Positions 3,201 to 60,281 of a stretch of DNA of 64,000 bases are shown here, piece after piece. The notes beneath the pieces were generated by a model, which saw only the letters and a list, made by a program, of their open reading frames with translations, had not been told where the DNA came from and made no database searches. The stretch spans positions 63,343,378 to 63,407,377 of the forward strand of contig CM060198.1 in assembly GCA_030549335.1 (NCBI GenBank), given 5' to 3'. A program made the translations under genes and the position numbers. Numbering within the stretch: the stretch's first letter is position 1; each line of letters opens with the position of its first letter. The stretch is from Pontederia crassipes (taxonomy: Eukaryota > Streptophyta > Magnoliopsida > Commelinales > Pontederiaceae).

Positions 3201-3632
3201 TTTTTGAAAAAAATCTGGATCGTGCATATATGTCCAAAGTTACTAAAATAATACAACTCATTCGACCAACGTTGTCCAAAATTTACTTTTCTTCCTCAAT
3301 AGATAAAAATTTTGGCGAGCTCGGAATATCAACTATTCCTTTGGATTTGTCCTTTGTCTCAAAGGTTGTTGTTTTTTTTTTTTTTTTGTATACCCACTCA
3401 ACACTTCAGATATTCAGAACTATTAGCATTAGCATCTGACACAGAACTATTAGCATCTGACAGAAAATAATATTCCCGTAATGATTTCAAGTATCGAATC
3501 TCTCACATAATACTACTATCAATTGCACTAACCCAACTTGGTTAAATTTCTTTCTTTCAACCAATCGAATGTACTGATAGAAAGAAAAAGTTGCCTCGAT
3601 AGTTTTATTAGTAGGAATGAATGAACAATAAT
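3201..3632. other. Spacer and interrupted duplicate copy, no gene
   Basis: Noncoding host DNA with a T-tract at 3372-3387. From about 3558 it matches 3058 onward. The last five bases (3628-3632, ATAAT) are the left target-site duplication of the adjoining insertion. Confidence 0.7.
3628..3632. repeat. Left 5-bp target-site duplication ATAAT
   Basis: ATAAT directly precedes the first LTR base (TGTAACAACC). The same five bases directly follow the outermost LTR at 14492-14496. Five-bp duplications are normal for Ty3/gypsy integrases. Confidence 0.75.
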
Positions 3633-6002
3633 TGTAACAACCAACAAAAAGATAAAAAAAAAAGAAAAGAAAACAAATCGTGATGGGTGGCCGAGCAAAG
3701 CACATGGGAAATTAAAAATCAAATCCCACTCAAAGTTTGAAAGGAAAGAAAAATTAAATCTAATCTCTTCAAATTTAATTTTGAGAAGAAGATTAGATTA
3801 AAATAAAAATCTTATCAGATATATATATATATATATATATGTATATGAGAGGTATTCACGAGAGAATTGAGGGAGATAAAAATCAATTGGCCATTAAATT
3901 TCTTGTTCCAGCAATCTCACGAATCCTTTCCGGTTTTCCTTCGTTCCCCTCCTACGCGATTCGAAGTAGGGAGATTTCTGCGCAAGGACAGAATTCGAGA
4001 GGAGGAACAGCAAGAGAACCGAGAGGGAACAAGGGGCGGATTCGAACGGATTTTTAACGAATCAAGGGTAGGATCCATCGTGACCAGGTGGGTGAATCGA
4101 AATCATCTTGCATGACCTCTGAATTATCCTAATTCATGCCCTCATAGTTATGAAAAGAAAAGAATATGAATATGATTCAAGTTATTATTTTTAATTGTTT
4201 GATTTCTTGAATTCTTTGATTTGTTGATTGTTACATGCATAGTTATTTCTGTTTGTTGTATTTCGGTATTATTGATTGCTAAGATGTCAGATTTAGAGGG
4301 GATTCGGTTCTCGGTTTTATAACGCAATTACGGCCGAAAAATTTGTTTGGCCGCAATTGTCTTACGGTCGAAGAAAAAAAAAATGGAGAGAGAAAGAAGT
4401 GATGGATTGGCCGTAAAAAGAAGAGAGAGAATAGAGTTTCGGCCGTAAAAGAAGAGAGAGAAGAGAAGTTTGGCCGTAAAAAGGAATAGAGAGAGAATAG
4501 AGTTTCGGCCGTAAAAGAAGAGAGAGAAGAGAAGTTTGGCCGTAAAAAGGAATAGAGAGAGAATAGAGTTTCGGCCGTAAAAGAAGAGAGAGAAGAAAAA
4601 TGTTTGGCCGTAAAAATGGTTTGGCCGTAAAGAGGTAGAGGATTTCGGCCGTAAAGGAGAAAAAAAAATATGGAGATGAGTTTTACGGCCGAGAAGTTGA
4701 GAGAGAATATAATTTCGGCCGTAAAAAGAATAGAGAGAAAAGAAGAGAGAGATAAGGGAAATAGGTTGTTACGGCCGAAGAGTTAGATTTCGGCCGTAAC
4801 GAGATAGACCGTAACGGATGGGCGTAACGAAATAGGCCGTAACGGATAAGCGTAACAGGTGATGGCCGTAACGAAATAAGAGTTGAATTATTACGGCCGA
4901 AGTAGAAAAGAAAATAGGATTTTTACGGCCGTAACGTAATAAAGGTTAATTTTTTCGGCCGAAAAATGAAAGGACTCTCGGGCGTAAAATCCAAAGAATT
5001 AGGGTTTTACAGCCGTAAAGTGAAGGAGATTCTTTGGGCATAAAATCCAACAAAATTTACCTATTAATCTCTCTTTATTTTTATATGAATATTATTGATT
5101 TCTTTATAATTCCAACATGAACTCTTTGTCTTGATTTACCTCATACCGATCATATCTCCTTCATCACATGATACAAAGAATGAAAAGATAATAAAGTGAT
5201 TAATAAGTTCAGATGAAAGATTAATGATGGGTTGCCAGTCCAAGCCAAGTGCATCAAGATAAGGGTCGCTCCCTTGGTCATGGTTTGATCACCCATTGAC
5301 CCGCACAAGGCCGTATCGTTTGCTGGGCATACCCCAAGAATTAAAGGCACCTCAAAGTCACCCTGATTGTTAATTAATAATCAAGATCGACAAGCATGTT
5401 CAAGTTCAAGTTTAAGTTCAAGTCAAGTCAAGTATTTCATGATTCCAAGTTTACTATGTACTATTGATCCTCATGATTCATGATATCGCTGATCTTATCC
5501 TTATTATGATCTATGATACTTATATGTTATCTTTCATGTTCAAGTTAAGCCTGATTAATTATCGCTGATTATTATATTCATGTTATGCATTGTATATTAT
5601 GTGGTTCTCCACTAGGCTGTAAAGCTTACGGGAGGACCTCCTCCCCTGTGTCTGATTTCCACAGGACCAGGTCAGTAACGTGGTGGAGTAGGCGTGTGGT
5701 GATGAGGCTCTGGCGATAGGACAGCACATGAACCATAGGGCTTTTTGAGTGTTATTTAGTTTTCATTTACCTTCCGCAATTTAAATTCGTGATGTAGAAC
5801 TCAGTTTATTTCTTAGTAATGACATAGTCACTTTTAGACTTCCGCAATTAAAGTTATAATTTATCTTTATTTCTTTTCTTCCGCTGACATGTCTCGGTTC
5901 TTGACTGAGATATGGTCAATATGATGGTCAAAGTCATAGCATGCCGTAACGTCTCCAGGTTGGTCTTCGCCACGTGGCGAGGGTCGATTTGGGGGCGTTA
6001 CA
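3633..6002 (+). repeat. Extra inverted LTR (plus orientation), 2370 bp
   Basis: Begins TGTAACAACCAAC and ends GGGGGCGTTACA (TG...CA). It is a near-exact inverted copy of 6023-8488 and matches 12116-14491 as well. It shares two base states with 6023-8488 that differ from 12116-14491, and one state with 12116-14491 that differs from 6023-8488. This fits an origin by copying from the 3' LTR. Short open frames inside it recur identically in the other two LTRs and are not genes. Confidence 0.9.
4425..4600 (+). repeat. Tandem ACGGCC minisatellite in LTR, 2 full units
   Basis: Units of about 65 bp containing GGCCGTAAAA plus AGAGAGA tracts repeat in tandem. Two full units plus a partial are present here, against three in the 6023-8488 LTR and two in the 12116-14491 LTR, a sign of slippage between the copies. 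Confidence 0.8.
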
Positions 6003-6022
6003 TTTATGGCATCACCCATAAA
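6003..6022. repeat. Palindromic junction between two head-to-head LTRs
   Basis: The 20 bases are TTTATGG, six bases, then CCATAAA. In the normal 5' LTR context of the same element the LTR end is followed by TTTATGGTATCAGAGCC, the tRNA-Met primer-binding site. Both arms of the junction carry the start of that sequence; the left arm matches TTTATGGTATCA at 11 of 12 bases. Host DNA or a target duplication would be expected here if two separate elements had inserted side by side. Confidence 0.85.
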
Positions 6023-8258
6023 TGTAACGCCCCCAAATCGACCCCCGCCACGTGGCGAAGACCAACCTGGAGACGTTACGGCATGCTATGACTTTGACCA
6101 TCATATTGACCATATCTCAGTCAAGAACCGAGACATGTCAGCGGAAGAAAAGAAATAAAGATAAATTATAACTTTAATTGCGGAAGTCTAAAAGTGACTA
6201 TGTCATTACTAAGAAATAAACTGAGTTCTACATCACGAATTTAAATTGCGGAAGGTAAATGAAAACTAAATAACACTCAAAAAGCCCTATGGTTCATGTG
6301 CTGTCCTATCGCCAGAGCCTCATCACCACACGCCTACTCCACCACGTTACTGACCTGGTCCTGTGGAAATCAGACACAGGGGAGGAGGTCCTCCCGTAAG
6401 CTTTACAGCCTAGTGGGGAACCACATAATATACAATGCATAACATGAATATAATAATCAGCGATAATTAATCAGGCTTAACTTGAACATGAAAGATAACA
6501 TATAAGTATCATAGATCATAATAAGGATAAGATCAGCGATATCATGAATCATGAGGATCAATAGTACATATTAAACTTGGAATCATGAAATACTTGACTT
6601 GACTTGAACTTAAACTTGAACTTGAACATGCTTGTCGATCTTGATTATTAATTAACAATCAGGGTGACTTTGAGGTGCCTTTAATTCTTGGGGTATGCCC
6701 AGCAAACGATACGGCCTTGTGCGGGTCAATGGGTGATCAAACCATGACCAAGGGAGCGACCCTTATCTTGATGCACTTGGCTTGGACTGGCAACCCATCA
6801 TTAATCTTTCATCTGAACTTATTAATCACTTTATTATCTTTTCATTCTTTGTATCATGTGATGAAGGAGATATGATCGGTATGAGGTAAATCAAGACAAA
6901 GAGTTCATGTTGGAATTATAAAGAAATCAATAATATTCATATAAAAATAAAGAGAGATTAATAGGTAAATTTTGTTGGATTTTATGCCCAAAGAATCTCC
7001 TTCACTTTACGGCTGTAAAACCCTAATTCTTTGGATTTTACGCCCGAGAGTCCTTTCATTTTTCGGCCGAAAAAATTAACCTTTATTACGTTACGGCCGT
7101 AAAAATCCTATTTTCTTTTCTACTTCGGCCGTAATAATTCAACTCTTATTTCGTTACGGCCATCACCTGTTACGCTTATCCGTTACGGCCTATTTCGTTA
7201 CGCCCATCCGTTACGGCCTATCCCGTTACGGCCGAAATCTAACTCTTCGGCCGTAACAACCTATTTCCCTTATCTCTCTCTTCTTTTCTCTCTCTTCTTT
7301 TCTCTCTATTCTTTTTACGGCCGAAATTATATTCTCTCTCAACTTCTCGGCCGTAAAACTCATCTCCATATTTTTTTTTCTCCTTTACGGCCGAAATCCT
7401 CTACCTCTTTACGGCCAAACCATTTTTACGGCCAAACATTTTTCTTCTCTCTCTTCTTTTACGGCCGAAACTCTATTCTCTCTCTATTCCTTTTTACGGC
7501 CAAACTTCTCTTCTCTCTCTTCTTTTACGGCCGAAACTCTATTCTCTCTCTATTCCTTTTTACGGCCAAACTTCTCTTCTCTCTCTTCTTTTACGGCCGA
7601 AACTCTATTCTCTCTCTATTCCTTTTTACGGCCAAACTTCTCTTCTCTCTCTTCTTTTACGGCCGAAACTCTATTCTCTCTCTTCTTTTTACGGCCAATC
7701 CATCACTTCTTTCTCTCTCCATTTTTTTTTTCTTCGACCGTAAGACAATTGCGGCCAAACAAATTTTTCGGCCGTAATTGCGTTATAAAACCGAGAACCG
7801 AATCCCCTCTAAATCTGACATCTTAGCAATCAATAATACCGAAATACAACAAACAGAAATAACTATGCATGTAACAATCAACAAATCAAAGAATTCAAGA
7901 AATCAAACAATTAAAAATAATAACTTGAATCATATTCATATTCTTTTCTTTTCATAACTATGAGGGCATGAATTAGGATAATTCAGAGGTCATGCAAGAT
8001 GATTTCGATTCACCCACCTGGTCACGATGGATCCTACCCTTGATTCGTTAAAAATCCGTTCGAATCCGCCCCTTGTTCCCTCTCGGTTCTCTTGCTGTTC
8101 CTCCTCTCGAATTCTGTCCTTGCGCAGAAATCTCCCTACTTCGAATCGCGTAGGAGGGGAACGAAGGAAAACCGGAAAGGATTCGTGAGATTGCTGGAAC
8201 AAGAAATTTAATGGCCAATTGATTTTTATCTCCCTCAATTCTCTCGTGAATACCTCTC

Positions 8259-8304
<46 letters not shown>

Positions 8305-8488
8305 GATAAGATTTTTATTTTAATCTAATCTTCTTCTCAAAATTAAATTTGAAGAGATTAGATTTAATTTTTCTTTCCTTTCAAACTTTGAGTGGGATTT
8401 GATTTTTAATTTCCCATGTGCTTTGCTCGGCCACCCATCACGATTTGTTTTCTTTTCTTTTTTTTTTATCTTTTTGTTGGTTGTTACA
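6023..8488 (-). repeat. 3' LTR of the chromovirus element, 2466 bp
   Basis: On the minus strand it runs TGTAACAACC... to ...GGGGGCGTTACA. It lies directly downstream of the pol tail motif at 8489-8520. It carries three full ACGGCC minisatellite units and an AT microsatellite (about 8265-8302) near its U3 start. Unusually, its U5 end is followed by primer-binding-site sequence rather than by host DNA. Confidence 0.9.
7455..7695 (-). repeat. Tandem ACGGCC minisatellite in LTR, 3 full units
   Basis: The same unit of about 65 bp as in the other LTRs (TTTTACGGCCGAAACTCT plus TCTCTC tracts), here three full copies and a partial. Confidence 0.8.
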
Positions 8489-8489
8489 T

Positions 8490-8705
8490 TCTTACCCCCT
8501 TAAAAGAAAATTCGTCCTCGAATTTTGCACTAAGTAGATGGCTTACCGAAAAGATGAGAGAATTCTTGGCGCATTTCCGATTCAAGTTCCTATGTCGCAT
8601 CATCGCCTTTATGGAAATGCCAAGCTACTCTGACCATGGTTACGTCATTGTTCTTCTGGCGTTGCACCTTGCGCTCCACTATGTGCGTTGGATACTCAGC
8701 GAAGG
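8490..8705 (-). pseudogene. Relic of integrase C-terminus with chromodomain-like tail
   Basis: Minus-strand translation gives DLTFAEYPTHIVERKVQ, then NNDVTMVRVAWHFHKGDDAT, a stop where a Trp is expected, and ELESEMRQEFSHLF. This matches the plant chromovirus pattern (DLTFEEYP..I.DRKV...R...V.MVRV.W......EATWE.E..M...YP.LF), which is the CHD-type chromodomain after the integrase core. After it, ATTCGAGGACGAATTTTC and a G-rich tract (AAGGGGGTAAGAA) precede the LTR, the usual end of pol plus polypurine tract. Not functional. Confidence 0.8.
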
Positions 8706-8869
8706 TCAGGTCTACGAATTCTTAACGTCATGCATCATCATCTAATAGGATTTCTGATGCTCTACTTTTTTTTTCTCCACATTGACATGCTGGGTACTTG
8801 GGACTTATTTTCGTATCTCCATGTTTCATGTCATAACTATTTATTCATCCATATACATTCGTGTCCTTC

Positions 8870-9015
8870 CCGAATGGATCGCAACCCAGGCTTATGATTA
8901 TATCCTTATACTTCTTTGTACTTTTTAAATGGATCGTAACCCAGGCTTATAATATTCATCACATACTTCCTATAAGACTTATTCCTAAATGGACCGCAAC
9001 CCAGGCTTATGTTAT
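8870..9015. repeat. Three short repeats (GGAYCGYAACCCAGGCTTAT)
   Basis: The motif occurs near 8876, 8932 and 8990, a period of about 57-60 bp, within the decayed internal region. Origin unknown; it may be an amplified piece of old pol sequence. Confidence 0.7.
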
Positions 9016-9129
9016 TCACATATTATTGCTCTCTTTAGGACTTTATAATTTGGTTTCCACATGCTTTGTTCCTCCAATATTTTATACGCAGCCTAGTAAG
9101 CATCGCTTGTGTCTGAGTGTATGTACGAC

Positions 9130-9645
9130 CGAGTTCATTTTTACCAAAATGATGCTTCATGGAGAACTCAGAATCTTTCTAACTTCATGTCATCTTCATT
9201 GTCACATATTAACGTACTACTGAAAGAAAGCATACCTAAGACTCTTTAGATCGATGAACACTTCAATCTTTTCTACATAAATATAAGCATAGTTTGAACA
9301 TAATGTTCATGAGAACTTAAAGGTTTGAGGGGTGTTCTTAGTCCAATGACATTGCTCAATTTATATTGATCATTCATTGCCAGGAAAATTACCTTCATTA
9401 CATCTTCTTCAGCAACTCGAAACTCCTGGTGCTCATTCCATAGGTCGATCTTGAGAACACTTAGTCTTAAATAGGTCATCTTTGCATGGTAACAGACACT
9501 TATATCTTGATAGTTGTTTTATTTAACAACTTGTTAATATAGCTCTAGATTCATAGAGTCATCATTCTTCTTTATAAAAGAAGTGGAACATCTAGAAATG
9601 AGTCCCTGGGTCTTATGAACCTTTTGTCTTAAAGTTATTTTCATA
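9130..9645 (-). pseudogene. Relic of reverse transcriptase, RNase H and integrase zinc region
   Basis: On the minus strand, in order: FIKKNDDSMNLELY (compare FVKKKDGSMRLCIDY of chromovirus RT), then KIDLWNEHQEFRVAEEDVMK (compare KIDLRSGYHQLRV.EEDVPK), then VFIDLKSLRYAFFQ (compare VFTDHKSLKYIFTQ of RNase H), then VLHEASFW plus a Y..H pattern like the integrase HHCC region. The YxDD part of RT and most of RNase H are deleted, and there are several stops and frameshifts. The domain order confirms a minus-strand Ty3/gypsy pol. Confidence 0.75.
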
Positions 9646-12097
9646 GGGTCATCGTCCTTATCGGGTGACCTATGCCATGTAAGAATCAATAGGATCACTA
9701 AGAACATTGTTCATCATCGTAGATAATGGCATCATCATATGATTCGATAAAATTGGTGATGCAATCATGCCAATCATCATCTTTATAAGGTCAATTTAGA
9801 TCAATAACTTTCACGATGACCTATGTTTGATGTGACCATACTCTAAACATCATCATAATCATTTAGCTTTTTGAGTGGAAGACATAACTTATTTGACTAC
9901 ATTGATTTGGTTCTTGCAATGTCATTTCATATAATTCCATAGGAGGCTAGTGATTATATATGACCATAATAAATCCTTTTCTTGAGTATCTTGAAGCACT
10001 CTGAATCAATGTTAAGGTCAAACAATATCTACGCTGAGGGGTCGCTACATAGTATGTTCTAATTCAGAATTATCAGAACAATTTATGTGCACTACATAAG
10101 TCCTTAGTCAAACATCATGAATGCAGGTTGACACATGGAATGAATTCAAACAATAAGACAAGAAAACAAAACAATCAACAAAACAGAAGACAAGCAATCA
10201 TTCTTCTTCTTCGTGCATCATTTCATGATCCTTTGCATTAATGATATCTTGTAGTACATGTGAGAGGGTCGGGAAAACTTTAAAGTTGGAAAGGAGAACT
10301 AATCCATTTATAAGACTTATGATCAAATCATAAGTGGTCCACTTGATCAAGACAAAATCTTAAACATTTTTCATCATACTGACGTAGAGGCATCTTAGAG
10401 AACATTCTATATATCATCTTATATCTTGCATCTTATGGACATTCTATGTATCACCCGATGACTTGCTTAACCCATTATCTAAACATATATATGATTTATT
10501 TTCCCTCTTGAACCATCAACCATGATTATATGATTGAATACCCTATACGTTTTGACATTATTATGAAAACTATAATTATATTAAAACTTGCGTAATCATC
10601 CCTCTCGGGTGCATAACTTGCTTTTCCAGAAATCTTGTAGGGGACTTATAAAATTCCTCATACTTTACCTTAACCATTCCATACTTTCTAAAAATTTTCT
10701 CACTTGGTGTTTTGATCTTTTAATACTTAATGGCTAGAAGCTCATGTGCCTCCTCAAACTTATCTTAGTTAGAATATCTTAAATTTTTTTCAAAATTTCT
10801 TACATCCAATTTAACTCTTTTATGCCTTGCTTATTCTTATATAATTCTGGTATTAACCATATTAGTCTATTTTGAAAATATATATACATTGCGATGTTAG
10901 AGAATTCATTCTTTAATAGTGGCTATATAAAATATACTTCATAATATTAAAATTTCAAATCCACCCTATACTAAACTAAGTTAATTAAATCTAATTATTT
11001 ATTTATTTATCTTTATATATTTATAAGTATACTATGTTGTATGTACATATGCGTATGAATATGCTAGATTTAAATGTTCGATTAACTCAAACAGTCACTT
11101 ACTCATTGAAAATTCCTTCTAACATTTATTCAAGCCAAGGTGACTTCTTAACACTTTAAGCTTCTATATTTGTCCATCCATACCTTATGCATGATTCTTG
11201 GGCAGCTCACTAATACTTAAATTATTGTTTAACTAATCTTACATAACTTGAACATGATTAATCTTTCTAATTCCTATTTCCAATATAAGGTAATCTAATT
11301 AGAAATTCGTATAACTAATTTGATTTATTATTATTATTATTTTTTTGATTAGGACCTTTATCCACATAATAAAGGGATCATATGAAGTCTAAAGCGCAAG
11401 AAGCATTATGGGTCCATACTTATCAACATAAACATATAAGATAATTTATTGAACCCTTATATTGGTAGACCAATGGAACCACATAAGTCATCACCATAAA
11501 TCATAACTTATGCATGCTTGGTTTCACCTCTACTATTTGAAATCATCTCACACCTACGTGTTGTGTGAGTCGAATTCTTTAATTACTCTTATAATTCTCT
11601 CGTTTCTTTCTTAAATCTACATCTCTTTGCAACTGATATGCCTATTCATTTTCCTCTTCATACTGCTGCAGTCAGTAGAAGAAGTCCGTGAATAGAGCAA
11701 TCATGAAAGAGATGAAAAATATGAATTATAAGAAACATAATCATTTCTTATATTTTACCCTTTAAATATCTGTAAGACTCATTCTTCACATGAGTATATT
11801 TATCCACATCCTTATTACATATTCATTTTCACTTTGTTCGTAACCTTTATGAACCTTTTTGTCTAAACACTAATAACATTTAGGTTGATTCCTACCATAC
11901 AGAATAACCTCTTTAGGAATCAACCACTCATATAAAATACATATCAATACATCAATAAACAGTAACTTAGCATAAACATGAGCTTGACTTACAATGCTTT
12001 TCAGTGGAGGGTGTGGCGACTGCTCGGTGATAGCACATGAACCTTTTACCATACTATACTATTCTATACACTAGGACGTCAAGAGAGTCCTAACTTT

Positions 12098-12111
12098 AGG
12101 CTCTGATACCA
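12098..12111 (-). promoter_or_regulatory. Primer-binding site, tRNA-Met type
   Basis: Directly inside the 5' LTR the minus strand reads TTTATGGTATCAGAGCC. TGGTATCAGAGCC complements the 3' end of initiator tRNA-Met, the usual primer for these elements. This fixes the element's orientation. Confidence 0.9.
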
Positions 12112-12115
12112 TAAA

Positions 12116-14491
12116 TGTAACGCCCCCAAATCGACCCCCGCCACGTGGCGAAGACCAACCTGGAGACGTTACGGCATGCTATGACTTTGACCATCATATT
12201 GACCATATCTCAGTCAAGAACCGAGACATGTCAGCGGAAGAAAAGAAATAAAGATAAATTATAACTTTAATTGCGGAAGTCTAAAAGTGACTATGTCATT
12301 ACTAACAAATAAACTGAGTTCTACATCACGAATTTAAATTGCGGAAGGTAAATGAAAACTAAATAACACTCAAAAAGCCCTATGGTTCATGTGCTGTCCT
12401 ATCGCCAGAGCCTCATCACCACACGCCTACTCCACCACGTTACTGACCTGGTCCTGTGGAAATCAGACACAGGGGAGGAGGTCCTCCCGTAAGCTTTACA
12501 GCCTAGTGGGGAACCACATAATATACAATGCATAACATGAATATAATAATCAGCGATAATTAATCAGGCTTAACTTGAACATGAAAGATAACATATAAGT
12601 ATCATAGATCATAATAAGGATAAGATCAGCGATATCATGAATCATGAGGATCAATAGTACATAGTAAACTTGGAATCATGAAATACTTGACTTGACTTGA
12701 ACTTAAACTTGAACTTGAACATGCTTGTCGATCTTGATTATTAATTAACAATCAGGGTGACTTTGAGGTGCCTTTAATTCTTGGGGTATGCCCAGCAAAC
12801 GATACGGCCTTGTGCGGGTCAATGGGTGATCAAACCATGACCAAGGGAGCGACCCTTATCTTGATGCACTTGGCTTGGACTGGCAACCCATCATTAATCT
12901 TTCATCTGAACTTATTAATCACTTTATTATCTTTTCATTCTTTGTATCATGTGATGAAGGAGATATGATCGGTATGAGGTAAATCAAGACAAAGAGTTCA
13001 TGTTGGAATTATAAAGAAATCAATAATATTCATATAAAAATAAAGAGAGATTAATAGGTAAATTTTGTTGGATTTTATGCCCAAAGAATCTCCTTCACTT
13101 TACGGCTGTAAAACCATAATTCTTTGGATTTTACGCCCGAGAGTCCTTTCATTTTTCGGCCGAAAAAATTAACCTTTATTACGTTACGGCCGTAAAAATC
13201 CTATTTTCTTTTCTACTTCGGCCGTAATAATTCAACTCTTATTTCGTTACGGCCATCACCTGTTACGCTTATCCGTTACGGCCTATTTCGTTACGCCCAT
13301 CCGTTACGGCCTATCCCGTTACGGCCGAAATCTAACTCTTCGGCCGTAACAACCTATTTCCCTTATCTCTCTCTTCTTTTCTCTCTCTTCTTTTCTCTCT
13401 ATTCTTTTTACGGCCGAAATTATATTCTCTCTCAACTTCTCGGCCGTAAAACTCATCTCCATATTTTTTTTTCTCCTTTACGGCCGAAATCCTCTACCTC
13501 TTTACGGCCAAACCATTTTTACGGCCAAACATTTTTCTTCTCTCTCTTCTTTTACGGCCGAAACTCTATTCTCTCTCTATTCCTTTTTACGGCCAAACTT
13601 CTCTTCTCTCTCTTCTTTTACGGCCGAAACTCTATTCTCTCTCTATTCCTTTTTACGGCCAAACTTCTCTTCTCTCTCTTCTTTTACGGCCGAAACTCTA
13701 TTCTCTCTCTTCTTTTTACGGCCAATCCATCACTTCTTTCTCTCTCCATTTTTTTTTTCTTCGACCGTAAGACAATTGCGGCCAAACAAATTTTTCGGCC
13801 GTAATTGCGTTATAAAACCGAGAACCGAATCCCCTCTAAATCTGACATCTTAGCAATCAATAATACCGAAATACAACAAACAGAAATAACTATGCATGTA
13901 ACAATCAACAAATCAAAGAATTCAAGAAATCAAACAATTAAAAATAATAACTTGAATCATATTCATATTCTTTTCTTTTCATAACTATGAGGGCATGAAT
14001 TAGGATAATTCAGAGGTCATGCAAGATGATTTCGATTCACCCACCTGGTCACGATGGATCCTACCCTTGATTCGTTAAAAATCCGTTCGAATCCGCCCCT
14101 TGTTCCCTCTCGGTTCTCTTGCTGTTCCTCCTCTCGAATTCTGTCCTTGCGCAGAAATCTCCCTACTTCGAATCGCGTAGGAGGGGAACGAAGGAAAACC
14201 GGAAAGGATTCGTGAGATTGCTGGAACAAGAAATTTAATGGCCAATTGATTTTTATCTCCCTCAATTCTCTCGTGAATACCTCTCATATACATATATATA
14301 TATATCTGATAAGATTTTTATTTTAATCTAATCTTCTTCTCAAAATTAAATTTGAAGAGATTAGATTTAATTTTTCTTTCCTTTCAAACTTTGAGTGGGA
14401 TTTGATTTTTAATTTCCCATGTGCTTTGCTCGGCCACCCATCACGATTTGTTTTCTTTTCTTTTTTTTTTATCTTTTTGTTGGTTGTTACA
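12116..14491 (-). repeat. 5' LTR of the chromovirus element, 2376 bp
   Basis: Same sequence as 6023-8488 apart from a few substitutions (for example near 12306 and 13113), one fewer minisatellite unit and a shorter AT microsatellite. Its U5 end abuts the primer-binding site and its U3 end abuts the ATAAT duplication. Confidence 0.9.
13550..13725 (-). repeat. Tandem ACGGCC minisatellite in LTR, 2 full units
   Basis: Same unit as in the other two LTRs, two full copies and a partial. Confidence 0.8.
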
Positions 14492-14496
14492 ATAAT
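14492..14496. repeat. Right 5-bp target-site duplication ATAAT
   Basis: Matches 3628-3632 exactly. Beyond it, host sequence continues as the counterpart of 3130-3200. Confidence 0.75.
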
Positions 14497-19291: not shown

Positions 19292-21253
19292 TCAACGTTT
19301 CTTTGCAGTCTTAGGAGGTACTATTCCATAGGCCTCGAGCCTCGACAACGGCACTTTAATTTCAGCTCGCCGTTGCTTTCTTCTTTCACGTCTGGATAAC
19401 TTCTTTTCTTCAGCATTTGATTGCTCTGTTTCAGTCAGTTGTTTCCCCTCTGTTTCTGAGGCACTTAGATGCTCCTTTGGTTTATGCTTCTTCATGTCAC
19501 TTTGTTTTCCCTCTCTTTCTGAGGTGCTTGGATGTTCCATTGGTTTATGCTTCTTCCTGTCACTCTTGCCTTCTGATTTTTCTCCATGAAGAATTAAATC
19601 TTTCTTCTTTCTCTGGTGATATGTCACTTCCCACTCCTTTTCTCTATAAGGTGCTAGTCTCTTTAGGGAAACATACTGGTTCAAGTCCTTCTCACTTGCA
19701 GTCAAGATCTCCTCAGTACGCAGTCCATATGTGTTAGCTGGGACGGACCTGTACTTAAACCGAGTCTTCAGATCTCCAATTGTGTCCTCATAATCAAGCT
19801 TATAATACTCTTCCAATTCCTTATCAAGAGCTACCTTCTCTTTGAGAGAGATCTTCCGTTTCCTCTTCCGTTTACCCTCTACAGGGGCTTCATGCTTTTC
19901 TTCTTCATCATCTTCTTTTTTTTCTTCTTCTTCCCCTTCTTTTTCCCTGAGCGTTAAAAATTTCTCCCTCGCTGCTTTAAAGCCCTCATTAGGTACACCC
20001 ACATCCCAACCTTTAGGAAGCCCAAGCAGTTCATCTTCTTTATCAAAATCAGGCTTCTCCAAATCCATCTCATCACCACTTGCAAATCCAGGATCTGCAT
20101 CCTCAGCTTCATAGTAGTTATTTCCAAAAACCTTTTTCATCTTCTTATCATATTCTTCAGGATCAAAGTCCTCCTCTAGATCATCTTCATCCAAATTGAT
20201 ATCGCCATCCTCTCCAATCCCTGCAATCGTTCTAATCTTCTGAAGCTTTTCCTGGATCTCCTTCTTCTTTAGGTTCTTAAGATGCTTGAGCTCTTCCTTC
20301 CTCTCAAGTTCAGCTTGCAACATCCTCTCTTCCTTGCTTTTCCTTTGTGCCTTCCTACTGGTCGTCTTCTTCCTGACAGACCCCTCAACAATCCTTGAAT
20401 GACCCAGAACTCGATCCCCCTCCCCTTGCTCATGACGGAAATTATACACAGCCTCATACCTCTCTTGCTTTTCAAGTTCCTCATCGTCATCTGAAACCTC
20501 GAGAATGTCAGTGGAAGCAGGCTTCTTTTCTGCATCCTTGTCAATCCACATCTTATTCCGCAAGTACTCCTTCAGGAACTTTTCATTCTCACTCAACTCA
20601 TCATCATTTCCAAAATATTCATTTAGATTCTGATCAACCAAATGAGCATCTATATCCTCCTTTTCCTCTACCGCATTCCCCTTCTCCTTGAGAATATCTT
20701 CGTCATCATCAGCAGCAGCTGCAAATGCCTCCTTCTCTGCTGCGAGGAATGCTTTAATTGCGTCTGCTTGGTCCTTATTATACACCTTGGAATCATACTT
20801 TAGTGACTTCTCTCCTAACTCAGGACCTTCTTCGATCAAATGTCGAGCATTCACATCCTTGAGGTATAAAGGTCTATCCTTTTTAGCAGCTTTAGGCTTC
20901 TGCTCATTTTCCCCACTGTCCTCGTCGGAGGAATAAATTTTGGCGTCCTGCTGCAGAACGGATGGATCCTGCTTCTTGACCCTAACGAGGGTTTCTAGAA
21001 ACTTCACGTCATTCTTGCCGAGCTTGGCGAGGTCGACGTTGTCATCCTCATCCTCAGAGGATTCCTCTTCGTCATCAGAGTCAGAGTCGTCTACGAGGCC
21101 ACGCTTCTTGAGATCCTCGAGGCGGTGGAGAGCCTCACGGCGCTTGTTGTGCTCGAGCCGGCGTGCGTACTCCTCATTGATCTTGATAGTGGAGAGATCG
21201 TCGGCATCGGAATCATCGCCGGAAGGCGCGTCGAAGAGGTCAATCGCCGCCAT
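19292..21253 (-). CDS. KRI1: KRI1-like ribosome biogenesis protein
   Basis: Complete single-exon frame of 653 residues. In yeast, Kri1 is a nucleolar protein needed for 40S subunit assembly. The sequence fits that family: a very acidic N-terminus (DSDSDDEEESSEDEDD near residue 60), a central Kri1 region with DFDPEEYDKKMKKVFGNNYY (around residue 360) and the conserved C-terminal block LDKELEEYYKLDYEDTIGDL to YREKEWEV (about 476-543). The basic tail is KKLSRRERRKQRRAEIKVPL, consistent with nucleolar targeting. Two 21-residue repeats (SD.KKHKP.EH...E.EGKQ) lie between block and tail. The frame extends to a TTG at 21256, but the ATG at 21253-21251 is the real start. A telo-box lies upstream. Function is inferred from the family. 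Confidence 0.93.
   Translation of the reverse strand: MAAIDLFDAPSGDDSDADDLSTIKINEEYARRLEHNKRREALHRLEDLKKRGLVDDSDSDDEEESSEDEDDNVDLAKLGKNDVKFLETLVRVKKQDPSVLQQDAKIYSSDEDSGENEQKPKAAKKDRPLYLKDVNARHLIEEGPELGEKSLKYDSKVYNKDQADAIKAFLAAEKEAFAAAADDDEDILKEKGNAVEEKEDIDAHLVDQNLNEYFGNDDELSENEKFLKEYLRNKMWIDKDAEKKPASTDILEVSDDDEELEKQERYEAVYNFRHEQGEGDRVLGHSRIVEGSVRKKTTSRKAQRKSKEERMLQAELERKEELKHLKNLKKKEIQEKLQKIRTIAGIGEDGDINLDEDDLEEDFDPEEYDKKMKKVFGNNYYEAEDADPGFASGDEMDLEKPDFDKEDELLGLPKGWDVGVPNEGFKAAREKFLTLREKEGEEEEKKEDDEEEKHEAPVEGKRKRKRKISLKEKVALDKELEEYYKLDYEDTIGDLKTRFKYRSVPANTYGLRTEEILTASEKDLNQYVSLKRLAPYREKEWEVTYHQRKKKDLILHGEKSEGKSDRKKHKPMEHPSTSEREGKQSDMKKHKPKEHLSASETEGKQLTETEQSNAEEKKLSRRERRKQRRAEIKVPLSRLEAYGIVPPKTAKKR
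19440..19566 (-). repeat. Tandem 63-bp duplication inside KRI1
   Basis: Two adjacent 63-bp units encode SDRKKHKPMEHPSTSEREGKQ and SDMKKHKPKEHLSASETEGKQ. The reading frame is kept, so this is an in-frame duplication in the linker before the basic tail. Confidence 0.8.
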
Positions 21254-21600
21254 CAAAGGAGAATACTATTTGGTGACACAACTGTGCCTGCAAACCGTTG
21301 GTGTGGTTGGCACAGTAAGATTCATAAAACCAGAGACGCAAACCAACTAAACATATTCAAAGACGAGATAAAAAAAACAAAAAACAAAAAAAGAGAGACA
21401 GATGACGGAGAGGAGGACCTGCCGCCGGAAAATGATGTGATTTCTACGGAGAGAGAGATCGGAGCGGCGTTGATGAGGAGGAGAAATCCTCGCAGCGGCG
21501 CATGCGCGAAAGAGGGAGCCGGCGCGATGTTGCGGGCGTAAATATGACGGAGAATGGCGGCGCTAGCGGGAGGCGGCGTTGGGGGCGGGGAAAAAAGATC
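21254..21600 (-). other. KRI1 5' UTR and proximal promoter region
   Basis: GA-rich and GC-rich sequence directly upstream of the KRI1 ATG, with no competing gene. A plausible 5' leader; the transcription start cannot be fixed from sequence. Confidence 0.5.
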
Positions 21601-24191: not shown

Positions 24192-25182
24192 TGATCACCT
24201 CTTTTTGTATTTATAATCCCTGCAATTAAATCCACAATTTTACATAAAAATTGGACATATTTTAAATGTTTTGATCAATTTTAGTGAAAGTTTGAACGAG
24301 TAAAAGAAGGGACTAACCACTTTTCAAAATTTGAACTTTGAACAGGGATAAAACAAAAAGGAAGGAGAAAGGGAGAAGGAGAAAGGGAGGAGGAGAAAAT
24401 GGAGGAGGAGAAAAGGGAGAAGGAGAAAGGGAGGAGGGGAAAAGGGAGAAGGAGAAAGGGAGGAGGAGAAAAGGGAGAAAAAGGAGAAGAGGACGAAGGC
24501 AAAGGAAGAAGAAGAATGAAGAACTAAAGAAGAATTTTTGGATTCTCTCGTGAAATAAACTTTATTGATGCTGATTTTTATTCCGACATTGTGATATTTT
24601 GAAATTGACTTTTCATTTCATTTACATGATGCATGGCTATTTAGATTTGACATTTGATTTCAAGTAGATCGAGAGATCAATTGTTTTTCTACTATTAGCT
24701 GATTTCATCCGAGAGGAGAAATCAGCCATCCTGATTGCTATGCCTCTAGTAATTGTTAATCTACATTTTAGAAAGATCGAGAGATCTATGAAAGTGACTA
24801 TCGTGCGATGATAACCCTAACAGTCGAGTGATGAGTCAATCCGCGTTCTGATCATTAGTGTAAGATTAGTAGGTTGGGTTGTAAGAATCGAGAGATCGCA
24901 CCTTTCTACTGGTTAGAGACGAGAGTTTTCTTATTCGGTGATCTTAATTTAGTGATCAGTAGTAATTCCCCTTCTTGAGGAACGGATACATCAATGGCAA
25001 TTGATTAATATAAATAGAGCAATTGATTAATATAAATCAACGGGGTTACGACACTCAGGGTTTCTACTCGACCTGTGCAATTGCAGTTGTGTGAACTCTT
25101 GAGTAAAATTTAAAACGTGGCTAGAATTTCTTCTGTTTTATGTGAAAATCCGCAACTCCACAATTACGATAAGTTCACGTCA
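24192..25182 (+). repeat. 5' LTR of the Athila element, 991 bp
   Basis: Starts TGATCACCTC and ends TTCACGTCA. Contains a long purine-rich GGGAGGAGGAGAAAA array (24355-24500), which explains an open frame there. Compared with the 3' LTR it lacks about 115 bp after ATCAATGGCAAT; the gap is filled by a short duplicated ATTGATTAATATA. Confidence 0.95.
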
Positions 25183-25188
25183 AGTTTT

Positions 25189-25206
25189 TGGCGCCATTGC
25201 CGGGGA
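25189..25206 (+). promoter_or_regulatory. Primer-binding site, tRNA-Asp type
   Basis: TGGCGCCATTGCCGGGGA, six bases after the LTR, complements the 3' end of plant tRNA-Asp at 17 of 18 positions (A where G is expected at position 8). Confidence 0.9.
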
Positions 25207-25302
25207 TTTCGATTAAATTAATTCGTCTCTTTTTATCTTTGCTTAGTTTAATTAAGTGGTATTTACGTCTGAATCTTTATCTTTGATTTCAGGGATTAGT
25301 AT

Positions 25303-26890
25303 ATGCCCAGAAACGTTCGAAGTCAATTACTTGAATTAGACCCTGAAATAGATCAAACTTTTAAGAGAAGGGTACGAGAACACAAGAATAGAACATCCCT
25401 TTTTGAAGGTACAAGCAGCACTAAATCTATAGAGTTCGAGGAGAATTCTAATCCTGAGATCGAAATGATGGCTGAACAAGAAGAGCCAATTCAACCGCGA
25501 CCATCGGTTCCATCATTAGAAGAACTCTATACTCCTACAGTAGATGAACTGGAGTCTGCAATTTTGAAGCCTGACATTCAAGCGAATTTTGAGTTAAAAT
25601 CATCTCTAATCTCTACGATCCAACAAAATCAATTTGGAGGAACCCCAGATGAACACCCAAATTAACACCTTAAAGATTTTCTAAAAATATGCAAGACAAC
25701 TAAGCTGAATGGGGTATCGCTAGAAGCATTGAGACTGGGGGTCTTCTCTTTCTCGCTAAGGGGTAAAGCCAAGCAATGGCTATAATCATTGGAACCCCGA
25801 GAATTAACTACCTGGGAGCAATTAGTAAAAGCATTTCTGTCAAAATATTTCCCTCCCAGCAAAACTATAAGAATCAGAAATCAAGTCATTGGTTTCATGC
25901 AAAAAGACCAAGAGACATTGTACGAAGCTTGGCAAAGGTTCAAGACATTGTAGGTCGTGCCCTCATCATGGTTTAAGCAAATGGATTTTGGTTCAGTCCT
26001 TCCACAATGGATTCAATTACGCCTCAAAAATGGCGCTTGACAACGCTGCAGATGGTGTGTTTATAAAGAAAAATGTAGATGAAGCTTACCAACTTATAGA
26101 AGAAATAGTTAGGAATCAACATTTCTTGGCTCATTCAAGGTCTAATGAGTCCGCAGCATTAACTCAAACTCGACTTGACGGTAAAGATTTTACTTCCAAG
26201 GTGGAGTATATAGTTCAAAAAGCAATTAGTCGACTGGGACTCAATGAAGCTACTCCAACTGTTAATATGATAGCAAGATGTTGTGAAATATGTGGTTCAT
26301 CTGATCACATTTCTGTGCACTGTGAGCTATTAAAACAGCAAGGACACCAACAACAAGCTAATGCTATAGGCCCTTATCCATCGAATAATGATCCATACTC
26401 TAACACTTTCAATCCAGGATGGAGAAACAATCCAAAGTTTTCCTACAGAGATAATTCTCAACAAAATCAGGCTCCCATTTGGCAAAACAGATTCAATCAG
26501 AGAGCACAACCTCAAATTTCTTGACAAAACAAGGGTCATCTTCTACCAACAAGCTAGAAATAATGATGGAGAAATATATGTCAAAACAGGACACTCTGAT
26601 GCAGAAAATGTTTGAGAAAATTGAAAGCCTCTCCATTTATAACAAAATGTTGGAAACTCAGATAGCTCAACAAGCTGCATCATCTTCAAGACAACCAGGG
26701 ATCTTACTTGGACATCCAGAGAAGAATCCAAAAGAGCAAGTTCAAGCTGTGATTTTAAGAAGTGGAAAGACAACTGATAACATAAGAAGAACAAGAGTGG
26801 AGGTCTCGACAGAGGCAACAGAGGAAGTTGGTGACCAAAATCAGACAGTTCAACCAGAGGACACAATGAATAAATCAAATAAATCCAAAT
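25303..26890 (+). pseudogene. gag: Athila gag (capsid/nucleocapsid), broken
   Basis: Starts with an ATG (MPRNVRSQLLELDPEIDQ) about 100 bp after the primer site. The capsid part (LGVFSFSLRGKAKQW, FLSKYFPPSKT, GFMQKDQETLYEAWQRFK) is split by in-frame stops near 25663, 25783 and 25950. Further on is a nucleocapsid zinc knuckle CEICGSSDHISVHC (CX2CX4HX4C, about 26287-26326), then another stop at 26522 and a linker. The protein would form the virus-like particle that packages the element's RNA. With at least four stops it cannot be made as one chain. Confidence 0.9.
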
Positions 26891-27024
26891 AACAGCTTGC
26901 TGAAGGTCAGCCTAGCTATTCTTCGTGGATACAATTTCCTAAATCCCTCGAGAAGTCTCGATAGGACCAATAATTTGGCAAGTTTGTAGAGATCCTAAAG
27001 AAACTCTATATCAATGTACCTTTT

Positions 27025-27549
27025 GTGGAAGCTATTCAAGAGATGCCAGCATATGCCAAATTCTTGAAGGAAATTTTATCGAAGAAGAGGAGGATACAAG
27101 AAAATGAAATTGTCGCGCTAACTGCTGAGGCAAGTGCGGTAATTCAAAATAGATTGTCTCCGAAGCTAAAAGATCCGGGAAACTTCTCCATACCCTGTGA
27201 AATTGGAAACCGAAAAATACGAAGAGCCTTATGTGATCTTGGTGCTTCAGTAAGTGTTATACCTCTGTCATTGTGTAAGAAACTTGAAATGGGTGACATT
27301 AAGCCCACAAATATGTCCCTCCAATTGACGGACAGATCTATAAAAATCCCGCAGGGAATCCTGGAGGACATACCCATCAAAATGGGCAATTTCTACATAC
27401 CAGCCGACTTTGTGGTGATAGACATGGATGAAGATAATCAAACTCCCATTTTGTTAGGGAGACCCTTCTTAGCTACTGCCGGAGCAGTGATAGACGTTAA
27501 ACAAGGTCGCCTTACCTTTCAAATAGGTGATGACATGGTTGAATTTTGA
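27025..27549 (+). pseudogene. Athila aspartic protease region
   Basis: Frame of 174 codons containing RRALCDLGASVSVIPLSLC, the DLGAS form of the aspartic-protease active site usual in Athila, and ILLGRPFLATAGAVIDV, the second conserved block. The domain itself is intact, but it is separated from gag and RT by stops (26890, 27547, 27594), so it is part of a broken polyprotein. It would cut Gag-Pol into mature proteins. Confidence 0.88.
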
Positions 27550-27657
27550 CCAAATCACCTTATTAATTGCCCAGACATGGAAGACCACTTTCTTTAACCT
27601 GAGCAACTGGATTCCCTTATACAGAAGGTAGCATCAGTTATTCACATATCAGACTCT

Positions 27658-29202
27658 TTGGAAGTATCTCTTGAAGCCCAAGAACCATCTTTGTGGACAG
27701 AAGAAGAAGCAGGCATTCTTAAGAGCCGCATGCTCTCAACTGAAACACAACACTCCAACGCTCCACTGGAAGACCAACCTACAGAATTTATGCAACAACC
27801 TAGTTCAAAGAAGCCAACAAAGCTAGAATTAAAGAAGCTTTCTCAAAATCTCAAGTATGAATTTCTAGGAGAAGACTCCACTTATCCAGTGATTGTGAAT
27901 GCAGATTTAAAGACAACTCAGCTTCAGCAGCTATTGGATAAGCTAAAAGCTTACAAGCATGTCATCGGATACACATTGGATGATCTCAAGGGAATTAATC
28001 CTACTATATGTATGCACCGTATCCATATGCAAAAAGATCATAAACCCTCCATAGAGGGACAAAGAAGGCTCAATTCAGCAATGAAGGAGGTAGTGAAAAA
28101 AGAAGTGATTAAACTATTGGATGCAGGAATTATCTACCCCATATCAGACAGTCAGTGGGTAAGTCCCGTGCAGGTCGTGCCAAAAAAGGGTGGAATGACC
28201 GTAGTCAAGACAGAGTCGGACAAATTCATTTTCACGCGAATGATCACCGGATGGAGGATGTGTATCGACTTCAGGAAACTTAATAAGGCCACAAGTAAGG
28301 ATCATTTTCCATTACCTTTTATTGACCAGATGTTGGAAAGGCTGGCAAACCATTCTTATTTTTGTTACTTGGACGGATTTTCTGGATTTCATCAAATTCT
28401 CATTCATCCAGAAGATCAAGAAAAGACTACCTTTACTTGTCCCTATGGAACCTTTGCATACAGAAGGATGCCCTTCGGATTATGTAATGCTCCAGCCAGC
28501 TTTCAAAGGTGCATGATGTCAATCTTCTCTGATTACATTGAAGAAATAATGGAGGTATTTATGGACGACTTTTTAGTGTATGGCACTTCCTTTGAAGTTT
28601 GTCTTCAGAATTTAGGAAAGGTATTACAAAGAAGTGCCGCATCTAATCTGGTGTTGAACTGGGAGAAATGACACTTTATGGTACAAGAAGGTATAGTCCT
28701 TGGGCATATTGTTTCAGGTCGAGGTATTGAAGTTGACAAAGCTAAGACAGAAGTAATTGAAAAATTACCTCCGTCTACTAATATCAAAGGAAACAGAAGC
28801 TTTCTTGGACATGCCGGGTTTTATCGCCGTTTCATCAAGAACTTTTCTCTAATTGCAAGACCTTTGACAAAACTCCTATCTAAAGAAGCAGAGTTTATAT
28901 TTGATGAACACTGTTTAAAGGCTTTTGAGACTATGAAAATAGCTCTTACAACAGCTCCAATCATCCAACCCCCTGATTGGTCCTTACCATTCGAAATTAT
29001 GTGTGATGCTAGTGATCAAGCTGTGAGAGCAGTGTTGGGACAAAGGAAAGATAAAAAGCAACATGCAATCTACTACGCCAGCAAAACTTTGGATGACTCA
29101 CAAATCAATTATGCCACAACTGAAAAGGAGTTTCTAGCAGTAGTTTTTGCAATAGATAAATTCAGATCCTACCTAGTTGGCTCCAAAGTTATTGTATACT
29201 GA
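27658..29202 (+). pseudogene. Athila reverse transcriptase and RNase H, broken
   Basis: The RT has WRMCIDFRKLNKAT, HFPLPFIDQMLERL, YLDGFSGFHQI, YGTFAYRRMPFGLCNAPASF and the catalytic box FMDDF (about 28558-28574), all conserved. A TGA near 28669 replaces a Cys codon (WEK-stop-HFM) between the RT core and its thumb. The RNase H part follows, with the metal-binding Asp in EIMCDASD and ASKTLDDSQ.NYATTEKE. Near 29195 the frame shifts and pol continues in the 29177-30538 frame. The enzyme would copy element RNA into cDNA but is disabled. Confidence 0.92.
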
Positions 29203-30700
29203 TCATCAAGCTGTGCAATACCTAATTGCTAAAAAAGATGCCAAACCTAGACTGATTAGATGGATTCTTTTGTTACAGGAATTTGATTTAGAAATCAAAG
29301 ATCGAAGGGGAACAAAAAACTTGGTAGCTGAGCATCTCTCCCGACTTCAATTATCAAAAGGAGACGTTGACTCTGAAGGCCGCAGTGAAATCAATGACTC
29401 TTTTCCAGATGAACAATTATTTTTAATTCAAAAAACACAACTTCCTTGGTTTGCTGATTATGCCAACTACTTAGCTTCCGAAGTTTTACAACCAGATCTC
29501 TCTTACCAACAAAAGAATGATTTTTTCTCCGATATCAAATACTACTTCTGGAATGAGCCATTTCTGTTCAAAAAATGTGCAGATGGGATATTTCGTAGAT
29601 GTGTACTAGACGAAGAACAATATGTTATATTACATGAATGTCATTCATCTCCTTATGGTGGTCACGGAGGATATCAGAAAACAACTGCTAAAGTTCTTCA
29701 AATAGGTTTTTATTGGCCAACTCTATTCAAGGATGTAATCAATATTGTTAAATCTTGCGATGCTTGCCAAAGAACTATAAATATAGGTCAAAAAAATGAG
29801 GCACCTCAGCAACCTATATTCGAAGTAGAAATATTTAATGTGTGGGGAGTAGTCTACATGGGACCTTTCCCTCCTTCATGCGGGTACAAATTCATACTTC
29901 TAGCTGTCGATTATATTTCAAAATGGATTGAAGATATTCCCACAATCTCAGCAGACTCGAAGTCAGTTGTCAAACTTTTTAAAGATATAATATTTCCAAG
30001 GTTTGATATGCCAAGATTGATTATTAGTGATGGGGGATCACCCTTTATTGAACGGAGTTTTGAAAAATTGCTATTTAAATACGGGGTCAAGCATAGGATA
30101 TTTACTGCCTATCACTCTCAGACCAATGGACAAGCAGAAGTCTCGAACAGAGAAATCAAACAAATTCTCGAGAAAATCATTTCAATAACCAGGAAGGATT
30201 GGAGTTTGAAACTTAATGAAGCATTGTGGGCATATCGGACTGCGTACAAGACACCAATTGGAACAATACCATTCAGGTTGATCTATGGCAAACACTGTTA
30301 CCTACCGATTGAATTAGAACATAAGGCTTTTTGGGCAATCAAAATGCTGAATTATGATTTCCAAGCAGCTTCTGGAAAACGTCTTCTGCAGCTCAACGAG
30401 CTAGATGAATTGAGATTAAATGCCTATAACAACTCTCGCATCTATAAAGAAAGAACGAAGAAATGGCATGATATGCACATATTGAGAAAGAATTTTAAGG
30501 AGGGCAACCAGGTTTTATTATTCAACTCCCGACTATGACTTTTTCCTGAGAAGTTAAGAACGCGATGGTCTGGACCGTTCACCATTGAAAAAATCTGCAG
30601 TGGATATAAAAAATAGTAATTCAGAAACCTTCAAGGTCAATGGGCGAAGATTGAAACGTTACAATCCAGGCGCAGTAAAGTTTGAAGAAGTGCTCCATCT
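29177..30700 (+). pseudogene. Athila RNase H end and integrase, inactivated
   Basis: Opens with the end of RNase H ([20 protein letters not shown], then [17 protein letters not shown]). Integrase follows: an HHCC zinc region ([18 protein letters not shown] to CDACQR), the core with ISDGGSPF and [14 protein letters not shown] (second Asp and Glu present), and a C-terminal RWSGPFTI motif. The first catalytic Asp, expected in WG.DFMGPFP, is replaced ([10 protein letters not shown]). A TGA at 30536 cuts the C-terminus. Integrase would insert the cDNA into the genome; the lost Asp alone should abolish this. Confidence 0.9.
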
Positions 30701-31096
30701 ACAATCAGATTATTAGAAGAAATAAGGTCGAGCCAACGACGTAAAAAAAAAGGTGCTACAGGGAGGCAACCCAACTAAATAAACGATCAACAGCCACGTC
30801 AGCATCTGCACGGTCAGAAATATCAGAAAAATCACTTGAAAGTACACTTTTGAGATCTAGTTGAGAATCCCAACAGAATCCAACATCATATCCACCCAAA
30901 AATCCACTTTTCTGAGTCCCACTTAAACTCTCTCTCACGTCACTTCGTTTTCTACCCAACCGACTAAAATCTCTCCCTCAACACCCATCATCTCTCGGCC
31001 AATTCCTGAAATCCCTAAACGCACTTCATCGCCCTCTCTTCATCGCCCTCCGAGAAACCCCCGGCCATCCTCCACCCCTTCCGGTCAACCTGCAAC
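30701..31096 (+). other. Noncoding gap between pol and env-like frame
   Basis: Contains no long frame. In Athila elements a splice acceptor for the env-like message is expected here; I cannot place it. Confidence 0.5.
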
Positions 31097-32347: not shown

Positions 32348-33429
32348 CAGAGAATCCAAGGAGTAGAGGAGGTTCAGAATTCCATTCTAACGACCCTCAG
32401 TGACATCCAATAGGTCACTGATCACATCCTTGAACTCCAACCAACTCCGGGTCCCTCTTCCTGGCATAATCGACACTGAGGACAGAGTCGATTTTAAGCT
32501 TGGGGGAGAGGGCAACATAGTACATTTCTACTCTTTACTCTTTACATTTCTACTCTTAGCTTCAAATTTTATATTCCAACTATTACATTGTAGATTGGCA
32601 TTGCACTATGTTAACTTCACACAGTATAAAAAGAGAAATTCTAATTCCATCCAGTAGCTATAGTCTTTGTTGCAACCTCCTAAAATTTTGTTCAAGGACA
32701 TCTTGCTAGCCCCTAACATTTTAATATATGTTGCAACCAAATTCAATGTAAAAAATGATAGGGCAAAGGTAGTGGAAAGTGACTATTTTGATATATTAAG
32801 AGCTTGACGACTAATCTTATTTAAGCTTGCTTCTGAATTCAAAATAACAGCTAATAAAATTATTAATGCTAACATTTTCTAGTGTAGCATAAAACCAAAA
32901 GAAAGAAAAAGTAAATAGCAAAACAAAAGTTGAAAGCAAAAAAAAAGAGGGCCAAGAGAGCCCCAGAAGGTACAAAAAGGGTGCATTCCTAAGCCGGGCT
33001 GAATTTGGGTGAGTAGATCCGTAGGGATTCATGCCTGGTACCCTAAGAGCAACTGCCCCGGGCTGTGCCGATCGAAAACCTGCTACATAAATTCTCCCGA
33101 GCATTATGGATAATCACATGAGTACTGGACGAATGAAAAGAAATAAGAATTCAACAAAAACTTATTACTGCACTGGTAGAGTTAGTATTAACCATTTTAT
33201 TATCTGCCTTCCCTATTCGAATTCTCTGGCTTGAGCTAAAAAGAGGAAGTTGAAAATGTCTTGCTCCTAGTATCTTCATCAAAGTCAAGGAATGAAGGAA
33301 CAAACAGGGATGCACTTGGGCAAAGAATTCAGGTTGGTATCTTAAAGTGTTGATGGGAAAGCAAGGTGAAAATCATCCCTACTTTGAACATTGCTTGAGG
33401 ACAAGCAAAAAGCTAAGCTTGGAGGAATT
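32348..33429 (+). other. Athila 3' noncoding region and polypurine tract
   Basis: About 1.1 kb without coding sequence. A phrase with TTCATGCCTGGTACCCTAAG (33030-33050) is a recurring feature of plant Athila 3' regions. The tract AGCTTGGAGGAATT directly before the 3' LTR (33416-33429) is the likely plus-strand primer. Confidence 0.75.
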
Positions 33430-34535: not shown

Positions 34536-34540
34536 CAGTG
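34536..34540. repeat. Right target-site duplication CAGTG
   Basis: Same five bases as 24187-24191. Confidence 0.9.
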
Positions 34541-39551: not shown

Positions 39552-41608
<2,057 letters not shown>

Positions 41609-46191: not shown

Positions 46192-46250
46192 TGCCAGCTC
46201 CTATGATTCAAATACACATCAATTCTCGAACCCCGCTGTTATCCGCTACA

Positions 46251-52553: not shown

Positions 52554-52567
52554 CCATGCAAGCTTGA

Positions 52568-52937: not shown

Positions 52938-52952
52938 ATCTTCCACTTGCCC

Positions 52953-55400: not shown

Positions 55401-55407
55401 CCAAGTC

Positions 55408-60276: not shown

Positions 60277-60281
60277 CCTGA

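Follow-up and report, generated by a model that had tools for sequence, protein, structure and literature searches.

A third, inverted long terminal repeat joined through primer-site sequence to a Pontederia crassipes LTR element inside one target-site duplication

A 64,000-nucleotide stretch of the Pontederia crassipes genome (assembly GCA_030549335.1, contig CM060198.1, positions 63,343,378 to 63,407,377 of the forward strand; hereafter, the window) contains a 10.9-kb block in which a long terminal repeat (LTR) retrotransposon is joined to a third, inverted copy of its own LTR. The structure of the block supports its entry by one integration of an aberrant complementary DNA (cDNA) with two U3 ends, and the U5-to-U5 join between the two adjacent LTRs very probably preceded that integration. 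For the inverted LTR itself, the explanation that we rank first, with a probability of roughly 0.45 and as yet unproved, is a snap-back of a plus strand that ended in primer-site sequence.

Three LTRs within a single target-site duplication

The window holds three copies of one LTR, one on the plus strand and two on the minus strand. Read along the minus strand, the block consists of an LTR (14491-12116), a primer site of the initiator-methionine (iMet) type, a 3.6-kb internal region, a second LTR (8488-6023), a short spacer and the inverted LTR (6002-3633). This is the order given in a preliminary description of the region, the outer coordinates of which were right to the base. Both outer ends of the block are U3 ends, again as had been claimed, with the exact terminus TGTAAC, and in the sense direction all three LTRs start with TGTAACAACC and end with GGGCGTTACA.

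The 5-bp target-site duplication (TSD) ATAAT, previously reported to surround the whole block, is indeed present on both sides with a 5/5 match, for which random 5-mers of this window give a probability of ~0.0014 (0.020 for a match of at least 4/5). A perfect duplication was found for none of the four sub-blocks tested, compared with the whole block: the flanks of the standard element and of the 5' LTR, each taken singly, match at 4/5 positions, those of the inverted LTR at 3/5 and those of the 3' LTR at 1/5. The preliminary description had named a separate TSD around 3633-6002 as a result that would speak for an independent insertion of the inverted LTR; with only three matching positions in its flanks, such an insertion was rejected.

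The 4/5 match of the standard element (6023-14491, flanked by ATAAA/ATAAT) is a point against a single event, and one that random positions reach in 2.0% of draws. It could be taken to mean that two separate insertions, or a later chromosomal rearrangement, placed an opposite-strand LTR beside a standard element. The match arises, however, because the opposite strand of TTTAT in the primer-site spacer is ATAAA, which nearly equals the target ATAAT. Two insertions or a rearrangement are improbable: the outer 5/5 match would be a coincidence (0.0014), and the primer-site sequence beside the 3' LTR and a divergence that fits equal age would both be needed by chance.

The inverted LTR and the 3' LTR form a 2.4-kb inverted repeat around a 6-nt centre. 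Indels split its arms into ungapped pieces with 99-100% complementarity, and the arms are exact over 29 nt at the centre (5981-6009/6016-6044). In a scan of the window for exact hairpins with gaps of at most 12 nt, the centre of the block ranks first among 358 overlapping hits; the second independent hairpin, at 2641-2695, has 27-nt arms and consists purely of an AT repeat. With arms 2.4 kb long and few indels, chance origin is not an issue, and a chance palindrome was rejected. Near-perfect inverted repeats of this length are hard for assemblers, so an assembly error or a fold-back read has to be considered. An artefact of either kind is very improbable, given that 5 substitutions and 3 indels distinguish the inverted LTR from the 3' LTR and that the false copy would have to break off precisely at the end of an LTR, next to a TSD that matches.

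A full alignment of the three LTRs, proposed as a check in the preliminary description, differs at 7 of 2362 ungapped columns, with 4 substitutions private to the inverted LTR, 2 to the 5' LTR and 1 to the 3' LTR. This distribution does not depart from equality (chi-square p 0.37, although with only 7 events), and the divergence of the three LTRs is consistent with one age; on the same 4/2/1 distribution, an old solo LTR lying beside a young element was rejected. At a rate of 1.3e-8 per site per year, the divergence dates the insertion to ~76,000 years. The 104 gap columns are confined to three places: the 3' LTR carries an additional 66-bp unit, the inverted LTR lacks a 14-bp unit, and an AT microsatellite has three lengths.

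Two further features of the LTRs were noted. In the LTR (4360-4960 and its counterparts), motifs of the GGCCGTAA type are arrayed in degenerate form within purine-rich units of ~66 bp, of which the 3' LTR has one more than the inverted and 5' LTRs. The four private substitutions of the inverted LTR (4802, 4808, 5608 and 5980) are all C:G to T:A changes in a CC context, and all three private changes in the 5' and 3' LTRs are transversions (hand-calculated one-sided exact test, p 1/35, with tiny numbers); this bias could reflect methylation of a hairpin arm.

The primer-site spacer and the origin of the inverted LTR

On the minus strand, the 3' LTR is directly followed by TTTATGGGTGATGCCATAAA and then by the inverted LTR; on the plus strand, the spacer (6003-6022) reads TTTATGGCATCACCCATAAA. 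What had been described as a 20-bp palindrome is actually two 7-nt arms flanking a non-palindromic 6-nt centre (7 + 6 + 7; TTTATGG-GTGATG-CCATAAA in the minus-strand direction). The further claim that primer-site sequence follows the 3' LTR proved correct, the arm TTTATGG being the same as at the junction of the 5' LTR with the primer site, TGGTATCAGAGCC, which we take to be of the initiator-Met type. The full primer-site string occurs once in the window (12099, minus strand). TTTATGG is found at 13 places on both strands (7 on the plus and 6 on the minus strand), and three of these adjoin an LTR, one on each side of the spacer and one where the 5' LTR meets its primer site. Ordinary insertions have the TSD directly at the U5 end of the 3' LTR, the primer-site letters having been removed through trimming by integrase. 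Because primer-site nucleotides persist on the 3' LTR, the join appears to predate this trimming, and it is simplest to suppose that integrase never cut back the end of the 3' LTR, which by then was attached to the inverted LTR.

The spacer has unequal sides, which would be expected were one end the template and the other its copy. The inverted side has a longer primer-site-like run, TTTATGGcATCA, with 11/12 letters matching; beyond the arm, 4/5 of the first centre letters match the primer site (p ~0.03 allowing two orientations). There is no tRNA gene in the 64-kb window, we know of no primer transfer RNA (tRNA) with the 3' end of the spacer, and the attempt to derive the spacer from another primer tRNA led nowhere.

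In the scenario that we rank first, a non-autonomous LTR element would have been reverse transcribed into an aberrant cDNA of the form LTR-primer-binding site-internal region-LTR-primer-binding site fragment-inverted LTR. The plus strand, with a short stretch of the primer tRNA copied at its end (LTR-TTTATGG...), would have folded back on itself at TGG/CC, and synthesis from the folded end would have run across U5, R and U3 as far as the plus-strand start, at the exact polypurine-tract/U3 boundary, yielding a second, inverted U3 end. Integrase would then have joined the two U3 ends in one strand-transfer event that made the ATAAT duplication. The exact stop of the inverted U3 could thus come from one molecule, because the plus strand's own 5' end is the U3 boundary. 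The fold-back priming step, which we infer together with the conversion of the hairpin to double-stranded DNA and its joining to the internal region, has less support than the formation of the join before integration. The spacer itself may be read as a short tRNA copy, TGGcATCA, to which three untemplated C's were added, two of them pairing with GG. That a plus strand with such tRNA-copied bases and untemplated C's self-primed at the primer-site TGG, with integrase taking the inverted LTR as the second U3 end, is possible but on balance doubtful.

Several observations weigh against a snap-back. Folding TGG on CC within the element's own primer-site copy predicts the loop TATCAGAG, whereas the actual centre is CATCAC, at an edit distance of 4, which is reached by 33% of random 6-mers in one orientation and by 53% in the better of two. 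When five plus-strand 3' ends were folded, the energies ranged from 0 to -0.8 kcal/mol and none beat shuffled sequences. The predicted fold-back was the best structure for only one of the five (...GAGCCA, -0.7 kcal/mol); the remaining four were paired at other positions or unpaired, and neither of the two CCC-ended strands took the fold-back. Furthermore, no simple order of steps was found for opening and copying the hairpin strand and joining it to the internal region. A second example of such a junction was not found either, no plant genome having been searched for one. Plus-strand snap-back is not described in the accessible portions of PMC3187697 or PMC5371799. The earlier proposal of a snap-back thus stands in part: one insertion, two U3 ends and a U5-to-U5 join before trimming are supported, and the snap-back of plus-strand strong-stop DNA itself is the leading candidate for that join, with the loop mismatch and the weak folds against it.

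The host might instead have joined the untrimmed U5/primer-site ends of two LTR-bearing cDNAs before integration, the product being subsequently inserted by its two U3 ends. Under this explanation, which we consider unlikely, the spacer would consist of two primer-site remnants of different length, TTTATGGcATCA and TTTATGG, separated by one base, and filler would naturally account for the mismatched centre. End-joining also gives rise to retroviral two-LTR circles. However, the partner would have to be a lone LTR in double-stranded form that stops exactly at the U3 end, or to have lost its internal region later, and more divergence than the three LTRs show would be expected between partners derived from different copies of the family.

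Quite unlikely, in our estimate, is an inverted dimer that later collapsed, in which two full units, joined tail to tail by a snap-back or by end-joining, were inserted once and LTR-LTR recombination in the left unit left an inverted solo LTR. This would demand a second event within a very young insertion, yet it explains every boundary exactly and has precedents for both of its steps. A maize terminal-repeat retrotransposon in miniature (TRIM) with two inverted units and one TSD is on record (PMC4717578), and solo-LTR formation is common in plants: ~7 Mb of Triticeae sequence yielded 70 such events, compared with 400 insertions of LTR retrotransposons (PMC1950507, Table 1). The snap-back, the joining of cDNA ends and the collapse of a dimer all leave the same anatomy, and one locus cannot separate them.

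A join made by erroneous reverse transcription would mean that the spacer preserves the plus-strand 3' end as it was at the moment of mispriming and that integrase accepts two U3 ends; should self-priming be the correct reading, the block would be a heritable record of plus-strand self-priming followed by U3/U3 integration. A genome-wide tally of such junctions would gauge the rate of plus-strand self-priming or cDNA-end joining. In addition, the near-perfect 2.4-kb LTR hairpin could be a natural candidate trigger of small-RNA silencing directed against its own family.

The internal region and other features of the window

Structural hallmarks of an LTR retrotransposon are present in the block: direct LTRs with TG...CA ends, a primer site, a purine tract and a 5-bp TSD (Table 1). 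The purine-rich stretch AAGGGGGTAAGAA, judging by its position, is presumably the polypurine tract. Five open reading frames (ORFs) of at least 60 amino acids overlap 8400-12200. This copy looks non-autonomous because the longest of these is 120 amino acids; the element is probably a non-autonomous LTR element of the Ty3 type. Gag and pol genes in the Ty3 order were not found among the internal-region ORFs, all of 120 amino acids or less, so the coding sequence does not discriminate between the Ty3 and Ty1 types. The label of chromovirus given in the preliminary description could not be confirmed. A broken reading of 60 amino acids just before the purine tract resembles, by eye only, a chromodomain or the end of a chromovirus integrase; a chromodomain had no match in Pfam (where only SiaC appeared, below the cut-off) or in PDB. 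No other copies of the family are present in the window, where blastn matches longer than 60 bp comprise the three LTRs, their inner repeats and this internal region.

Elsewhere in the window, a bacterial-type large-subunit ribosomal RNA (rRNA) piece (44583-46272, 902 bits) and a group II intron piece (39942-40007) are probable organelle DNA in the nuclear genome. Another LTR element (24192-34539) has Ty3-like frames by eye (reverse transcriptase and integrase) and LTR-like repeats that are ~94% identical; within it lies a plant small nucleolar RNA, snoR71 (25870-25974, minus strand, 48.7 bits). An older LTR element (52342-61280) has a Ty1/copia integrase-like frame by eye and repeats with 92.7% identity over 371 bp. 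Finally, for a KRI1-like ORF (19292-21256), 548 of 7986 scored candidates passed the search; among the matches listed (best 120 of 548), the best is from Canna indica, at 64% identity, and the next named ones are from date palm, Typha, pineapple, oil palm, coconut and ginger. These matches, none of them close, make a monocot host probable.

Table 1. Features of the three-LTR block, with positions in the window
Feature	Position	Strand	Remark
TSD ATAAT, left copy	3628..3632		5/5 match to 14492-14496
Inverted extra LTR	3633..6002	+	2370 bp, U3 end outermost
U5-to-U5 spacer	6003..6022		TTTATGG-CATCAC-CCATAAA on +; primer-site-like sequence on both sides
3' LTR	6023..8488	-	2466 bp; TTTATGG next on U5 side
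Internal region	8489..12115	-	3627 bp
Purine-rich stretch AAGGGGGTAAGAA	8489..8501	-	directly before U3 start of 3' LTR
Primer-binding site region	12099..12115	-	TTTA, then TGGTATCAGAGCC
5' LTR	12116..14491	-	2376 bp, U3 end outermost
TSD ATAAT, right copy	14492..14496		5/5 match to left copy

Comparison with known systems

A plant insertion with an inverted third LTR joined via the primer site was not found among the literature matches listed, which cover titles and the starts of abstracts, with most subscription journals outside the coverage. This negative is no proof of absence, given that the maize inverted TRIM is evident only in full text and not at the level of title or abstract. That maize case (PMC4717578, from the text accessible) also qualifies the previous statement that no plant insertion of this form had been described, for inverted structures within one TSD are already on record in plants.

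The case in question is the Zma-SMART TRIM, with two inverted units and one TSD (Gao et al. 2016, PMC4717578); the arrays in the respective figure were verified by polymerase chain reaction and sequencing. The block described here likewise has one TSD and an inversion, but its second unit is only an LTR. In contrast to the two 559-bp units of Zma-SMART (by the legend coordinates), it spans 10.9 kb and combines one unit with a lone inverted LTR. For the inverted arrangement, the accessible text of that paper gives neither a junction sequence nor a mechanism.

Sabot and Schulman (2007, PMC1950507) reported complex insertions in Triticeae, rice and maize that are attributed to template switching and carry three LTRs with one TSD, and took highly similar outer LTRs as a sign of one reverse-transcription cycle. 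The same logic is applied here to one TSD around three nearly identical LTRs. Those complexes, however, share a middle LTR between two internal regions and have all LTRs in one orientation, whereas the Pontederia block has one internal region and one LTR inverted; the switch proposed for them is between R regions, and the join here is at U5/primer site. Tandem LTR elements of rice (PMC11899658) and Cassandra arrays (PMC7215508) also contain extra LTRs in one structure, but these are tandem arrays, and no inverted LTR is described in the accessible parts of either paper. LTRs in inverted orientation are a feature shared with DIRS-1 (PMC5633606), which, unlike the block with its direct LTR pair, extra LTR and 5-bp TSD, carries inverted LTRs as a regular feature, along with a tyrosine recombinase. 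A DIRS-type identity was rejected on the grounds of the direct LTR pair, the TSD and the lack of any internal-region ORF above 120 amino acids. DIRS-type elements are not known to carry a TSD.

The join itself has its counterparts among retroviruses, where two-LTR circle junctions with retained primer nucleotides and the self-priming of strong-stop DNA involve, as proposed here, cDNA-end joining or fold-back priming. The retroviral products, however, are head-to-tail circles or derive from minus-strand strong-stop DNA, whereas the block in Pontederia is a chromosomal insertion with two U3 ends.

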